Below the pieces are notes generated by a model. The model saw only the letters and a program-made list of their open reading frames with translations, did not search any database and had not been told where the DNA came from. A stretch of DNA of 64,000 nucleotides from Ignisphaera sp. (GTDB taxonomy: Archaea > Thermoproteota > Thermoprotei_A > Sulfolobales > Ignisphaeraceae): positions 62,001 through 126,000 of the forward strand of contig JAWBKZ010000005.1 in assembly GCA_038831005.1 (NCBI GenBank), read 5' to 3'. Made by a program: the position numbers and the translations under genes. Position 1 is the stretch's first letter. Each line of letters starts with the position of its first letter. Of this stretch, positions 54,917 to 61,447 are shown one piece after another.

Positions 54917-57900
54917 ATGAATATAGGTTCTCGAGGATATGGCTCAGCTGGATTCTCTATGGCACTACCTACACTAAGTTTTAAGGGTTCTTCGCATAAA
55001 GTAGATGAGAATTACATTAATAAACTTCTGCTTCCTAGAGGTATATACCTACACTTGTGTCCCAATTGCGGTGGTCCTATAGAAGACAGTAGATTGTTGT
55101 TTCGAAATGTTTGTTCAAAATGTATGGGTACTAACGAGATAATACCTGTTAGCAATATGATTGAACTAACAGAACATATTAAAGACATGACTCTCGAGAG
55201 TAGCGTTAGAAAAGTTGTTGATGTTCAGAAATTTGTTCAAGATTTTAGTGAATTTTTTGTCAAGTGTTTGAAGAGTTCTCCCTGGCATCTCCAGATAAGC
55301 TGGACTGTGAGGATTGCTCAAAATCAGAGTTTTGCACTTGTGGCTCCTACAGGTGTAGGTAAAACAACGTTTGGATTGATAGTAGCTCTCTATCTATCCT
55401 ATAGACTGGGTAAAAAGACATACATAATCGTTCCAACATCTATCCTTGTGAAACAGTGCGAAGAGAGATTAAGGGAGTTTGCAGAAAGAGCAGGTATAAT
55501 AGTTCAGATTATAGCTATGCATTCAAGGCTTTCACCAAAGAAAAGAGAAGAATATGAAAAAGCTATACGTGAGGGTTATTTTGATATAATTATCACAACG
55601 TCTAAGTACCTCATGAGAAACTTTAACGAAGTGTTCAATTACTTTCTATCCAAAGGATATAAGATGGGGTTCGTGTTTGTGGACGATGTTGATGCTGTAA
55701 TGAAGGGTAGTAAGGCCATAGACATGATTTTGAAGCTTATAGGGTTTAGTGAAAAAGATATAGAGAAAGCGTATAAACTTATGGCTCTTCGTCAAAGAAT
55801 GATAAAGTGTAGCTCATCTGAGAATGAAAAAGCTAGAGGTATCTGTTATGAGGGTGAGAAACATATCAGAGATGTTTTTAATGATCTTCAACGCGAAGTT
55901 CTAGCTACAAGAAGGAAATGTGGGATACTGGTAATTAGTTCTGCTACAGGAAGAGCTAGAGGCAAGAGAATTAGGTTATTTAGGGAGTTGTTGGGATTTA
56001 ATATAGGGTCTGCTGTTGAAGTTTATAGAAATGTTGTAGATACCTACATGTTGATGCCTAAAGAAGAGGAAGTAGCAGATATTGTTGCAAAGCTTATCAA
56101 TAAGTTAGGTGATGGCTGTTTAATATACGTAACGATTGATCGAGGACTAGAATACGCTAACAAGTTCTGTAATGAGCTCAGAGGCAGAGGTATAGAAGTC
56201 GAGGTACTCTCGAGTAAGAGAACAGATACTCTAGAACGGTTTATCTTGGGTGAGGTAAAGGCTCTAATAGGTGTAGCTACGTACTACGGTCTTCTTGTGA
56301 GAGGAATAGATATTCCGGAGAGGATCAGGTACGCTATATTTATCGGGGTCCCTCGACACAAAATTTCGATAACACAAATAGGATTCAATCCCCAGAACTT
56401 ACTGAGGCTTTTAACAGCACTTTTAGATGTTATAGAGGATAAGAAACAGAAAGATAGGGTAATTAGACTTATAGCACAGCTCAGAAGGATTCTTCGACAG
56501 ATGTCTGCTGAAAGAATTAAGATTGTAGTTGATAAGATATCTTCACAAGAGCCTATAGAAGAGCCTGTAGCCTCCATAATAACCGAAGCCCACAATCTCG
56601 TTGCATCTCTTCTATCTGATAAGAATATAGTTGAGGCCCTCAAGAAATATCAGAAAACATCTATTGTTGAGGAAAATGACACACTCTACATACTGGTACC
56701 AGATGCACCCACATATATACAGGCTAGTGGCAGAACTTCGAGACTTTTTATTGGAGGTATAACGACGGGACTCTCCATAGTATTAGTCGATGATATTAGG
56801 TTGCTTAATGGACTTGTAGACAGAGTGAAGTACTTTATAGAGGATTTCTCAATGAACTCCTTAGAAGCAGTAGATATTGACAATGTAATCAAACGTATTG
56901 ATGATGATAGAGAACTATTGAAAACAATTAGATCTGGTAAACTAGATCTTCGTGAAGTACCCAAGGAGCTTAGAGTTAGAACAGCTTTATTTATAGTTGA
57001 ATCTCCCAATAAGGCTAGAACTATAGCATCATTCTTTGGAAGACCAACGTTTAGGGAAATAGATGGTCTAAGAATTTATGAAACTAATGTAGGCGATATA
57101 CATCTGCTTATAACCTCTACTGGTGGTCATGTTTTTGAGGTTGTTGAAGAAGGCATTCAAGAAGATAGCGTTTATGGAATAGCTATTGCTAAACACAACG
57201 AGAAGATACTCTTTTTACCAAAATATGATTACATTAAGAGATGCTTTAGATGTGGTACACAATTTGTAAGAGGCGAAACTTGTCCTATTTGTGGAAGTGA
57301 TAGAGTAAAATCATCTAGATCTATTATTGAGGTGCTTCAGAGAATAGCTATGGAAGTTGACGAGATATTTATAGCTACAGATCCTGATGCTGAAGGCGAG
57401 AAGATAGGCTATGATATAGCAATATCCTTAGCACCTTTCGCTAAATCGATTATGAGGATAGAGTTCCATGAGGTTACTAGAAAAGCTGTACTAAATGCTC
57501 TTAGAAATCCCAGGGAAGTTAATTTATCGCTTGTTGAAGCTCAGATAACCAGAAGGATAGAGGATAGATTATTAGGGTTTGCACTTTCTGAATATGTGAC
57601 AAACAAGCTGAAGACCCTCGATATAGGTTTGCGAGAAAGAGAAGGAAGGTTAAGTGCAGGTAGGGTTCAGACACCCGTTCTTGGCAGAATCATAGAGCTC
57701 TACATCAAGAAGCTGATAACAGCCAGAAAAGCTAAGATCATATATCTTGATGGAATATCTATAGAAGTTCCTCAGGATTTACTAGAGAAGGTTCTTGGTG
57801 AAGAAATCAAAAGGCTTTCTCCCTCACGTGTGGAGGTAGTTTTTAGATCCACATCAATAAACATTGAGAGACTATACCCATTACCACCATTTACAACAGA

Positions 57901-58951
57901 TGAAATGATAACCGAGGCTCATAGGGTTCTGAAGATCGATGCTGTAGAAGCTATGAGACTTGCTCAAGATCTTTTTGAGCTTGGATTTATAACGTACCAT
58001 AGGACAGATTCAACAAGAATATCGTCAGCCGGTATAAGTCTGGCTAAAGAGTATCTATCCAGTATCTATGGCGATAAGCTCTCCGATGTTTTTGAACCTA
58101 GAGCTTGGGGTAGTGGAGGAGCTCACGAAGGTATACGTCCAACAAAACCTATAGATGTGGATAAACTTAAAGAGCTTATAGCTGAAGGTGTTATAGAGAC
58201 TCCATTAAGACTTACTGCTAAACATTTCAAGCTCTATGATCTTATATTCAGAAGGTTTATGGCAAGCCAGATGAAGCCCGGTATTGTGGAGAAAACTAGA
58301 TACATTGTAACAGTCTATATCGATAGTAACGAGGTATTCTCACAGACTATAGAGCTTGTAACGAGCGTAATTGACCCCGGATTCCTATTGATGTATATGC
58401 CAATAAAAGTCATCTCTACACCTAATACAACATTTTCTCTAAAACCTTCAAAGATAAGAACTGTTGTCTTGAGCGAATACACGATGCCAACTCAAGGCGA
58501 TATAATTAGGTGGATGAAGGAGGTAGGTATAGGTAGACCCAGTACATATGCCAAAATCGTAGACACAATTATTAAGAGAGGCTATACAATGAGTGTAAAA
58601 GGCGGTATACTTATACCTGATATAGAAGGGATATATGTGTATCTTCTTCTTGCTGGAGCGGGTTTTGACAATAAAGATATCGGTCTTGAGACATTTCTAA
58701 ACACCATAAGGTCTGTATACAGAAGAAGTGAAAATATTGTTGAGAATGTTACCAAGGTACTCAACATGGTTCGTGATGAACTAAGGAGGATGGTAAGTGT
58801 CAAGAGAACACAGGAACTCTATACAAAGATACAGTCTGTAGAGTTAGGTAAAGCCAATTATATAGATGTAATACAAGAGTTATTCAAAGAGGTGTGTAGA
58901 TACATAATTTCTGAACTATATGAAGGTGTGAAGGCATGTCAAACAACGTAA
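54917..58951 (+). CDS. rgy: Reverse gyrase
   Basis: The 1344-residue enzyme introduces positive supercoils with ATP and marks hyperthermophiles. An N-terminal zinc finger (Cys48, 51, 66, 69) precedes the helicase half, with Walker A LVAPTGVGKTTFG (about 141-153), FVFVDDVDAVMKGSKA (near 252-267) and an ASGRTSRLF motif VI. A second zinc finger starts at Cys776 (CFRCGTQF, then CPICGS). The topoisomerase IA half has the Tyr in FITYHRTDSTRIS at residue 1027. All catalytic parts are present and the length is normal. The next gene overlaps its end by 16 bases. Confidence 0.98.
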   Translation: MNIGSRGYGSAGFSMALPTLSFKGSSHKVDENYINKLLLPRGIYLHLCPNCGGPIEDSRLLFRNVCSKCMGTNEIIPVSNMIELTEHIKDMTLESSVRKVVDVQKFVQDFSEFFVKCLKSSPWHLQISWTVRIAQNQSFALVAPTGVGKTTFGLIVALYLSYRLGKKTYIIVPTSILVKQCEERLREFAERAGIIVQIIAMHSRLSPKKREEYEKAIREGYFDIIITTSKYLMRNFNEVFNYFLSKGYKMGFVFVDDVDAVMKGSKAIDMILKLIGFSEKDIEKAYKLMALRQRMIKCSSSENEKARGICYEGEKHIRDVFNDLQREVLATRRKCGILVISSATGRARGKRIRLFRELLGFNIGSAVEVYRNVVDTYMLMPKEEEVADIVAKLINKLGDGCLIYVTIDRGLEYANKFCNELRGRGIEVEVLSSKRTDTLERFILGEVKALIGVATYYGLLVRGIDIPERIRYAIFIGVPRHKISITQIGFNPQNLLRLLTALLDVIEDKKQKDRVIRLIAQLRRILRQMSAERIKIVVDKISSQEPIEEPVASIITEAHNLVASLLSDKNIVEALKKYQKTSIVEENDTLYILVPDAPTYIQASGRTSRLFIGGITTGLSIVLVDDIRLLNGLVDRVKYFIEDFSMNSLEAVDIDNVIKRIDDDRELLKTIRSGKLDLREVPKELRVRTALFIVESPNKARTIASFFGRPTFREIDGLRIYETNVGDIHLLITSTGGHVFEVVEEGIQEDSVYGIAIAKHNEKILFLPKYDYIKRCFRCGTQFVRGETCPICGSDRVKSSRSIIEVLQRIAMEVDEIFIATDPDAEGEKIGYDIAISLAPFAKSIMRIEFHEVTRKAVLNALRNPREVNLSLVEAQITRRIEDRLLGFALSEYVTNKLKTLDIGLREREGRLSAGRVQTPVLGRIIELYIKKLITARKAKIIYLDGISIEVPQDLLEKVLGEEIKRLSPSRVEVVFRSTSINIERLYPLPPFTTDEMITEAHRVLKIDAVEAMRLAQDLFELGFITYHRTDSTRISSAGISLAKEYLSSIYGDKLSDVFEPRAWGSGGAHEGIRPTKPIDVDKLKELIAEGVIETPLRLTAKHFKLYDLIFRRFMASQMKPGIVEKTRYIVTVYIDSNEVFSQTIELVTSVIDPGFLLMYMPIKVISTPNTTFSLKPSKIRTVVLSEYTMPTQGDIIRWMKEVGIGRPSTYAKIVDTIIKRGYTMSVKGGILIPDIEGIYVYLLLAGAGFDNKDIGLETFLNTIRSVYRRSENIVENVTKVLNMVRDELRRMVSVKRTQELYTKIQSVELGKANYIDVIQELFKEVCRYIISELYEGVKACQTT

Positions 58952-59760
58952 AAAGTGTTATGTCTGTTCTTCATAGTGTTATAGATCTCGGTAGATATGA
59001 ACAGAATATGCAGAGAATTGAAGAAATGATAGAGCGAGCAAAAAACGAAGGTGCTGAAGTAGTTTTATTGCCAGCTATGATGAATGGTGTATCGATTTTC
59101 GATTTAAAGAAGAACTTGAAGATTAAGAGGGTTACAGAAACTATACCTGGAAAAACTTCTGAGCATTTAGCGAGAATTGCAAATAAATTCAAGATCTATA
59201 TACTGAGTGGACCCATACTTGAAAGAAGAGGTTCAAAAATATATAGATCGGCATTTCTAGTAGATCCATCAATGAACATTAAATCAGTTATAAGTCAAGT
59301 GAACACCCCTTCGAAATTTGGACAAAGTTCTTCACCTCCTGTAGTCAATATCTGTGGACTTACTGTAGGTATATTCATAGCCGAAGATATCCATCTACCA
59401 GAACTTTCACTCTTGATGAAGATAACGAATGTTGATATAGTGGTTTTCTATCCATATCCACAGATATCAGTAGATAAAATAACAGCTATAATGAAAACCA
59501 GATCATTAGAGCTTAACACAATGATCATAAGTATTGGATATACCATTAGAAGAAAAGATGAAGAAATACTGTTTATGCCCACATCAATAGTTGATGAAAA
59601 TGGTACCGTTATTCATGAAGTGTTAGATAAATCACCAAAGATAATTAAAGTTAATTTGGATAAAGGTAAATCAAAGATAAATGTAGAGCCTTCGCCTTCT
59701 CCATCACATAAAAAGCTACTGAAAGTATTGAACAGAGCTATATCATACTACATCAAATGA
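58936..59760 (+). CDS. Nitrilase-fold protein lacking the catalytic triad
   Basis: The 274-residue protein has the carbon-nitrogen hydrolase layout, yet all three catalytic residues are replaced. The Glu position reads EGAEVVLLPAMMNG (PA instead of PE, near 47), the Lys position reads SVISQVNTP (Q instead of K, near 121) and the Cys position reads VGIFIAEDIHLPELSLL (A instead of C, near 149). The fold landmarks around them remain. It should be a non-enzymatic member, perhaps a regulatory or binding protein. ATG 58936 lies inside the reverse gyrase gene, 16 bases before its end, so the two are coupled. Confidence 0.8.
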   Translation: MSNNVKSVMSVLHSVIDLGRYEQNMQRIEEMIERAKNEGAEVVLLPAMMNGVSIFDLKKNLKIKRVTETIPGKTSEHLARIANKFKIYILSGPILERRGSKIYRSAFLVDPSMNIKSVISQVNTPSKFGQSSSPPVVNICGLTVGIFIAEDIHLPELSLLMKITNVDIVVFYPYPQISVDKITAIMKTRSLELNTMIISIGYTIRRKDEEILFMPTSIVDENGTVIHEVLDKSPKIIKVNLDKGKSKINVEPSPSPSHKKLLKVLNRAISYYIK

Positions 59761-59820: not shown

Positions 59821-60120
59821 TTACTTGCGTAGCGAAACCACAATAACTCGTCTATTCTTGGCAACTATCTCAACTCCCTGAGACACCGCTGCTCTAAGTA
59901 ATTTCTTAGCCATACTATATCTTATATTGTATTTCTGAGCCACTTGAAACGTAGTTATGTGGCTCTGACTCTTAAGCTCCTCTACAATTTTTTTGATCAT
60001 TGATTGATCTACTATACCCAATTTTTCTTCTTTCTTTTCCTCTTTTTTCTCTACTTTTTTCTCTACTTTTTTCTGTTTCTTTTCTATAGATGATATAGGT
60101 TTACCTCCCTTTGTACCCAT
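59821..60120 (-). CDS. rps25e: Ribosomal protein eS25
   Basis: The 99-residue protein has a Lys/Glu-rich N-terminal tail (KKVEKKVEKKEEKKEEK) and the winged-helix core MIKKIVEELKSQSHITTFQV followed by AQKYNIRYSMAKKLLRAA (about 41-78). It is the small-subunit protein shared by eukaryotes and many archaea. It is divergent from the ribbon-helix-helix gene. The start is ATG 60120. Confidence 0.93.
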   Translation of the reverse strand: MGTKGGKPISSIEKKQKKVEKKVEKKEEKKEEKLGIVDQSMIKKIVEELKSQSHITTFQVAQKYNIRYSMAKKLLRAAVSQGVEIVAKNRRVIVVSLRK

Positions 60121-60183: not shown

Positions 60184-60402
60184 ATGGTGACACCTTTGCG
60201 TATAGTTACAGTAAAAATACCGGAATCATACATTGAGGCAATAGATGAACTTGTTAGAATAGGTAGGTATACCTCTAGATCAGAAGTCATTAGAGCAGCC
60301 ATTAGGGAATTACTTAAGAAAGAGCTTTGGTCTAGTGGTAATAGGGTTATTGAGGGAAAAAGCAATAAAAGCAGAGTTATAGAGGTTATAGAGGATTTTT
60401 GA
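60184..60402 (+). CDS. Small ribbon-helix-helix (CopG/MetJ-type) regulator
   Basis: The 72-residue protein carries the RHH pattern: an N-terminal strand [19 protein letters not shown] (about 5-23) and helix-turn-helix [19 protein letters not shown] (about 26-44). A basic linker and the short tail [10 protein letters not shown] follow. It is expected to bind DNA as a dimer. The gene stands alone, facing away from rps25e across 63 bases; no partner toxin is visible, so an autonomous repressor is likelier than an antitoxin. Its targets are unknown. Confidence 0.85.
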
Positions 60403-60608: not shown

Positions 60609-60665
60609 TACGATGATGAGGGCTGGTATTGGTGATGTGATGAAGAATGACGTCAGGTCTGAGTG
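60609..60665 (+). ncRNA. Candidate C/D-box guide sRNA overlapping the trmI start
   Basis: Perfect boxes are seen for C (ATGATGA, 60613-60619), C' (GTGATGA, 60637-60643) and D (CTGA, 60659-60662). D' is not clear (CTGG at 60623-60626 is one option). The spacer from C' to D is 15 bases and the overall size is about 55 bases. The D box falls within the first codons of trmI. I could not place its guides on rRNA or tRNA with confidence; chance occurrence in leader DNA is possible. Confidence 0.3.
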
Positions 60666-61447
60666 ATAACCTCTACGTTAATCCAGATGATAGGGTACTC
60701 ATCTACATAGATCGTAGACGTAGATGGATTACAAAAATAGAGAAAGACAAGGTTTTTACATCAGATAGAGGCTTCATATATCTTGGTGATATTATTGGTC
60801 TTGGATACGGATCTAGAATCAAAACCAGCACCAAGTTCGATGTATATCTTCTGAAACCGCTTCTCATAGACTTTCTTGAAAAAGGTCTCACTAGAGTAAC
60901 ACAAGTAATATATCCTAAAGATCAAGGATTCATAGTCATGCTCTTAGGGCTGTCGCCAGGATCAAGAGTTGTTGAGGTAGGTGTAGGTACGGGTAATACT
61001 ACAGCTGTATTAGCTAATATAGTTAGACCAACGGGTCATATTTATGGCTATGAAATAAGGAAAGAATTTCTGAATATTGCTAGAAAAAACCTCGAGATAC
61101 TAGGTTTAGCGAGTTATGTAACGTTAAAGCTTAAAGACGCTAAAGAAGGTATAGATGAAAGAGATGTTGATGGAGCAGTAATCGATGTAGCTGATCCATG
61201 GGATCTTTTGGAACCCCTGCACATAACCCTAAAACCTTCAGCTCCTGTGGTTTTCTTCATACCATCGTTCAATCAAATTGAAAAGCTGTACAATTCTTTA
61301 GTAGAACATGGAGGATACATAGATATCAGATGCTACGAAGTATTGCTACGTGAGATAATGTTAACCAGAGAGGCAATAAGACCATCATCGCTAATGATTG
61401 GGCATACAGGGTACATAATGTTTGCAAGGAAAGTGACAAAGGTATAA
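60647..61447 (+). CDS. trmI: tRNA (adenine-57/58-N1)-methyltransferase
   Basis: The 266-residue SAM-dependent enzyme methylates N1 of adenine 57 and/or 58 in the T-loop, helping tRNA stay folded at high temperature. The N-terminal beta domain (1-85) ends GLTRVTQVIYPKDQGFIVML, followed by SAM motif I SRVVEVGVGTGNTTAVLA (about 105-122), YGYEIRKEFLNIARKNLE and VDGAVIDVADPWDLLEPLH (about 179-197), the motif IV region. Length fits archaeal TrmI. No gene is closely coupled. Confidence 0.92.
   Translation: MTSGLSDNLYVNPDDRVLIYIDRRRRWITKIEKDKVFTSDRGFIYLGDIIGLGYGSRIKTSTKFDVYLLKPLLIDFLEKGLTRVTQVIYPKDQGFIVMLLGLSPGSRVVEVGVGTGNTTAVLANIVRPTGHIYGYEIRKEFLNIARKNLEILGLASYVTLKLKDAKEGIDERDVDGAVIDVADPWDLLEPLHITLKPSAPVVFFIPSFNQIEKLYNSLVEHGGYIDIRCYEVLLREIMLTREAIRPSSLMIGHTGYIMFARKVTKV

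Follow-up and report, generated by a model that had tools for sequence, protein, structure and literature searches.

The open reading frame at positions 58936–59760 of the 64,000-nucleotide stretch of Ignisphaera sp. DNA analyzed here (the window) encodes a nitrilase-fold protein that, as comparison with its homologues well supports, is a maintained pseudoenzyme with a remodelled former active site, and its gene is very frequently paired with one particular paralogue of reverse gyrase, the hallmark enzyme of hyperthermophiles. The gene lies on the forward strand, starts with ATG and specifies 274 amino acids, residues 22–243 of which match PF00795 (CN_hydrolase) with 65.8 bits (cut-off 23.2, E 4.9e-18); it is the sole CN_hydrolase match in the window's own genome. 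Upstream on the same strand, positions 54917–58951 encode a protein of 1344 amino acids that scores 1185 bits against TIGR01054 (cut-off 471.7) and is thus a reverse gyrase, with zinc finger, DEAD helicase, Toprim and topoisomerase domains, that is, with both the helicase and the topoisomerase IA modules present. According to the ORF list and the sequence itself, the two genes overlap by 16 bp (58936–58951, forward strand), so that the ATG of the nitrilase-like gene indeed lies inside the reverse gyrase gene, as an earlier note on this DNA had stated. On the 3′ side, the window contains genes for a homologue of ribosomal protein S25e (59821–60120, reverse strand), a ribbon-helix-helix protein (60184–60402, forward) and, further downstream, a GCD14/TrmI-type tRNA methyltransferase (60647–61447, forward), and in related genomes, too, homologues are encoded close to the pair.

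The catalytic positions were located by aligning the window protein to nitrilases of solved structure and to homologues in which the triad is intact. The position of the catalytic Glu is taken by Ala47 (motif LLPA, codon 59074–59076), that of the Lys by Gln121 (ISQ, 59296–59298) and that of the Cys, in the nucleophile elbow, by Ala149 (59380–59382), which is followed directly by acidic residues in Ala149-Glu150-Asp151 (IAED, 59380–59388; all forward strand). The protein thus lacks the Glu-Lys-Cys triad of active nitrilases and amidases, and the motifs that flank the triad are kept (LP at 45–46, D151, PE at 155–156, R189 and E192). The three replacements within otherwise preserved surroundings that the earlier note had read from the sequence are therefore found again whether solved nitrilases or homologues serve as the reference. 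In fold, length and flanking motifs the protein resembles archaeal nitrilases of PF00795 (Pyrococcus PH0642/1j31, 6ypa, 3ivz), and profile comparison with solved structures gave an E value of 1.5e-33 for 6ypa, the best relatives of solved structure being the amidase of Pyrococcus horikoshii and, among archaeal nitrilases, 3ivz. It differs from these enzymes in that all members linked to reverse gyrase are devoid of the catalytic Glu and Cys, in the window's genus also of the Lys, and in having lost the C-terminal R, P and Y residues that characterize the intact set. An AlphaFold model built from two sequences was poor (mean pLDDT 46.6, pTM 0.53); the 50 best PDB matches listed by Foldseek for this low-confidence model all have the nitrilase fold (TM about 0.5), an outcome in line with the profile match that adds little to it.

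Among 64 aligned homologues without the E-K-C triad, a set that leaves out one long-branch outlier retaining Glu and Lys (L161), none has a Glu at position 47 and none a Cys at position 149. The Lys at position 121 is kept in 47 of the 64; the window's genus lacks it, as do parts of family f2, the latter being less certain as the f2 alignment is gapped around the first two triad positions. An acidic residue at position 149 or 150 is present in 53/64 of these proteins versus 0/21 intact E-K-C nitrilases, and H13, G201 (64/64) and P215 are conserved specifically in the pseudoenzymes. The residue replacing Glu varies freely among families (S, A, Q, P, Y, T, G, H), and within the window's genus the triad positions read QQA, SQA, AQA or AHG. 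The combination A/Q/A, the conservation of which in related genomes the earlier note had suggested checking, is confined to this species; what extends over the whole order is the lack of Glu and Cys. The outlier itself (L161:3452–4339, genome G045) is a divergent nitrilase-like reading frame with E-K-D at the triad positions and a long branch beside the intact enzymes; here the nucleophile may have been lost independently, for a second time.

With the window protein as query, relatives were retrieved from 52 of 60 related genomes, and a profile built from 40 rows (A1) matched 142 of the 147 genomes of the order, some of these matches being intact nitrilases. PF00795 was matched by all 40 of 40 aligned members. 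The 40-row profile further detected members in additional families of the class, where the tandem with reverse gyrase is present at three loci (f14, f16). The matches fetched from outside the class (six with high and three with lower scores) all proved to be intact E-K-C nitrilases, and no reverse gyrase-like reading frame was found in the fetched stretches of these nine loci. A scan of genome contigs with the window protein alone as query gave no match; with a Sulfolobaceae member as query, Metallosphaera javensis was matched, and this organism (L072) has the pair of pseudonitrilase, as we term the protein, and a TopR1-like reverse gyrase. In the phylogenetic tree, a single branch (support 99/97, 200/200 bootstrap trees) divides the sequences without the triad from 21 E-K-C nitrilases. 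As all E-K-C sequences lie across this one well-supported branch, the catalytic loss is consistent with a single origin. Reading frames are intact across the order (about 265–320 amino acids), dN/dS was 0.03–0.13 in eight close pairs with usable dS, and fast-evolving branches occur in families f2 and f9. Low dN/dS, the split into clades and the lack of Glu and Cys in all 64 homologues together argue for a maintained pseudoenzyme under strong purifying selection, the reading that the earlier note had put forward. Homologues with a full triad, which that note had named as evidence to the contrary, do exist, solely as a separate clade, and were never found beside a reverse gyrase. Conservation throughout the order rules out chance or an isolated oddity, and horizontal gain of a single dead copy is ruled out as well, because the trees of pseudonitrilase and reverse gyrase both group the copies by taxonomic family.

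The arrangement of the two genes is widespread. When loci were fetched by protein similarity alone, a reverse gyrase was encoded immediately upstream on the same strand in 33 of 39 cases, and according to the match lists the tandem is present in at least 89 of the 147 genomes of the order; the gene order seen in the window, the conservation of which the earlier note had suggested testing, is thus frequent in related genomes. It occurs across about ten families of the order and in other families of the class, and any other neighbouring gene is far less constant. The two genes overlap in 37 of 57 pairs and lie within 30 bp of each other in 52 of 57, whereby the overlap figures are upper bounds as the longest-ORF starts were used. 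Such gene order is evidence of co-inheritance, not of contact. In several families a gene that follows the pseudonitrilase gene, and in others one a few genes away, encodes a protein of about 120 amino acids with the motif VFRDYYKxYGxPxFYYY and no Pfam match (L116:7192–7566, L118:8700–9074, L124:9076–9465, L126:3915–4304, L128:4613–4975, L131:9377–9736, L134:8834–9196, L140:3969–4319). Neither the window's genome nor the sampled Sulfolobaceae encode it, which rules it out as a core third member of the cassette.

A tree of 81 reverse gyrases resolved two paralogue clades, and the link to the pseudonitrilase concerns one of them: all 55 of 55 linked copies, including the one from the window (L090), fall into the same clade, as against 0/21 rows in the other. 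The Zn2 motif, that is, the second zinc finger, is present in 21/21 rows of the unlinked clade versus 33/59 of the linked clade, and this contrast matches the published difference between TopR2 and TopR1 (PMC6878951). The window's copy itself carries the CxxCx9CxxC motif, as members of its clade may. In Sulfolobaceae, the linked reverse gyrase is the long copy (1220–1250 amino acids) and the unlinked one the short copy (about 1150 amino acids). On these sequence features the linked clade is classified as TopR1-like and the unlinked one as TopR2-like, this naming depending in part on the length of the copies. In L110, L112, L189 and L115 the TopR1-like reverse gyrase is of unusual length (1421–1755 amino acids), and its matches are split by insertions, possibly inteins or large lineage-specific insertions. 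The window's genome encodes a second, TopR2-like reverse gyrase elsewhere (L106, G000:C6; 4061–7822) between two Alba genes (L106:3811–4089 and L106:7902–8201), the identity of which was confirmed by Pfam in this genome only. Alba-like genes were seen on both sides of the TopR2-like gene in L105, L107, L108, L111 and L121 and on one side in L103, L109 and L122; such flanking occurs in many families of the order, often on either side of the gene.

The pairing has exceptions in both directions. Genera g29 and g34, which include the one-contig genomes G058, G072 and G065, have a single, TopR2-like reverse gyrase and have kept a pseudonitrilase without Glu and Cys (A-K-D, in one case P-K-D), which is under purifying selection (dN/dS 0.05–0.20). 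Conversely, family f6 has retained a TopR1-like gene, and a search for a pseudonitrilase beside it found no trace; the TopR2-like reverse gyrase of this family is shortened or very divergent (L113/G022, L177/G032, L178/G059, L179/G051). In genomes of families f7 (e.g., G042, G073) and f4, both genes are present and unlinked. Co-occurrence with TopR1 thus fails in g29, g34 and f6; the association is strong and old, and it is obligatory in neither direction. The protein without TopR1 in two genera and TopR1 without the protein in f6 rule out an obligate TopR1 subunit, and as the pseudonitrilase outlives TopR1 in g29 and g34, it cannot solely be such a subunit. For the link to DNA topology that the earlier note had considered, this means that the high frequency with which the gene is paired with a single paralogue of reverse gyrase lends support, which is weakened by retention of the protein after loss of TopR1 and of TopR1 without the protein.

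Could the protein simply be an active nitrilase with its catalytic residues placed elsewhere? The window protein is weakly similar to solved nitrilases (best phmmer E 2.2e-8), so that a misalignment is conceivable. Against this, the motifs LP-x, R-K, D-xxx-PE and R-xxE align around all three positions in most of the 64 homologues and in the 21 controls, and the only Cys of the window protein, C140, lies nine residues ahead of the elbow position, which makes this explanation extremely improbable. We judge it just as improbable that the gene is degenerating, i.e., a pseudogene with a still open frame: high divergence, the fast branches in f2 and f9 and the loss in f6 would fit such a fate, but it is contradicted by the low dN/dS values, by frames that are intact order-wide and by a glycine (G201) that is invariant. 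A protein repurposed for another reaction, or for binding a metal for catalysis, has somewhat more in its favor, namely the Lys retained in most homologues, the acidic residue that is so common where Cys-Tyr stood and is absent there from the intact enzymes, and the conserved residues H13, G201 and P215 specific to the pseudoenzymes. We nevertheless regard it as unlikely, because the window's genus lacks the Lys and has Ala or Gly at position 149, and because the residue at the Glu position is free to vary among families.

Devoid of the catalytic residues and yet retained by selection, the pseudonitrilase thus probably acts as a helper or sensor without enzymatic activity rather than as a hydrolase. 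Whether that function involves reverse gyrase is a matter of weighing. A real, conserved pseudoenzyme could act independently of reverse gyrase, e.g., as a housekeeping or stress sensor at high temperature, and reside in the topR1 operon merely for reasons of expression. Purifying selection on the protein in the two genera without TopR1, its presence in an intact, unlinked form in several f7 and f4 genomes and its absence in f6 despite the persistence of TopR1 all favor this idea, which we consider quite possible; linkage across about ten families and others of the class, to a single paralogue throughout and mostly with overlap, and the lack of a comparably constant second neighbour speak against it. 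Tentatively, we place ahead of it the idea that a catalytically dead nitrilase-fold protein, usually working jointly with TopR1, has a role in DNA topology or stress as a regulator or sensor, and repurposed catalysis behind both. Such a role near TopR1 is judged likeliest because in Sulfolobus TopR1, not TopR2, is the temperature-responsive regulator of supercoiling (PMC8185306; PMC10653856). A catalytically dead member of the superfamily would have arisen once, near the base of the archaeal class, and its gene would then have become the downstream partner of a TopR1-like reverse gyrase, the two presumably being co-transcribed in most cases and often translationally coupled. The pseudonitrilase would work through binding rather than hydrolysis, with the remodelled, usually acidic old active site holding a ligand or cation or offering a partner surface, and would help to adjust the control of supercoiling by TopR1 or to report on it. 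A more speculative and rather doubtful extension is that each crenarchaeal paralogue of reverse gyrase has a locus dedicated to it: Alba chromatin proteins for TopR2 and, for TopR1, a dead nitrilase that adjusts positive supercoiling in response to a small ligand or cation that it senses. In that case a pseudoenzyme would have been turned into a regulator of DNA topology that responds to metabolites or stress.

Nit domains serve alongside partner proteins in other contexts, such as NitFhit (PMC9913352) and the nitrilase-type glutaminase domain of NAD synthetase (PMC3376133). The pseudonitrilase differs from them in being encoded by a separate, unfused gene, in being catalytically dead and in being linked to a topoisomerase. 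The TopR1 system of Sulfolobus involves the same TopR1-like paralogue as the pseudonitrilase-linked one, that of Metallosphaera javensis included, and the open-access publications on TopR1 that were searched do not mention a pseudonitrilase partner gene. Nor was a description of the reverse gyrase–pseudonitrilase pair found in the open-access literature, to which the survey was confined. Within this literature, the fold family and the neighbouring enzyme are known, and the pseudoenzyme subfamily and its linkage are apparently undescribed. Automatic annotation would label the protein as a hydrolase. The family adds a large, old pseudoenzyme lineage of single origin to the nitrilase superfamily, and as the pair is present in most genomes examined, including those of genetically tractable Sulfolobaceae, it provides a concrete candidate regulator of reverse gyrase.
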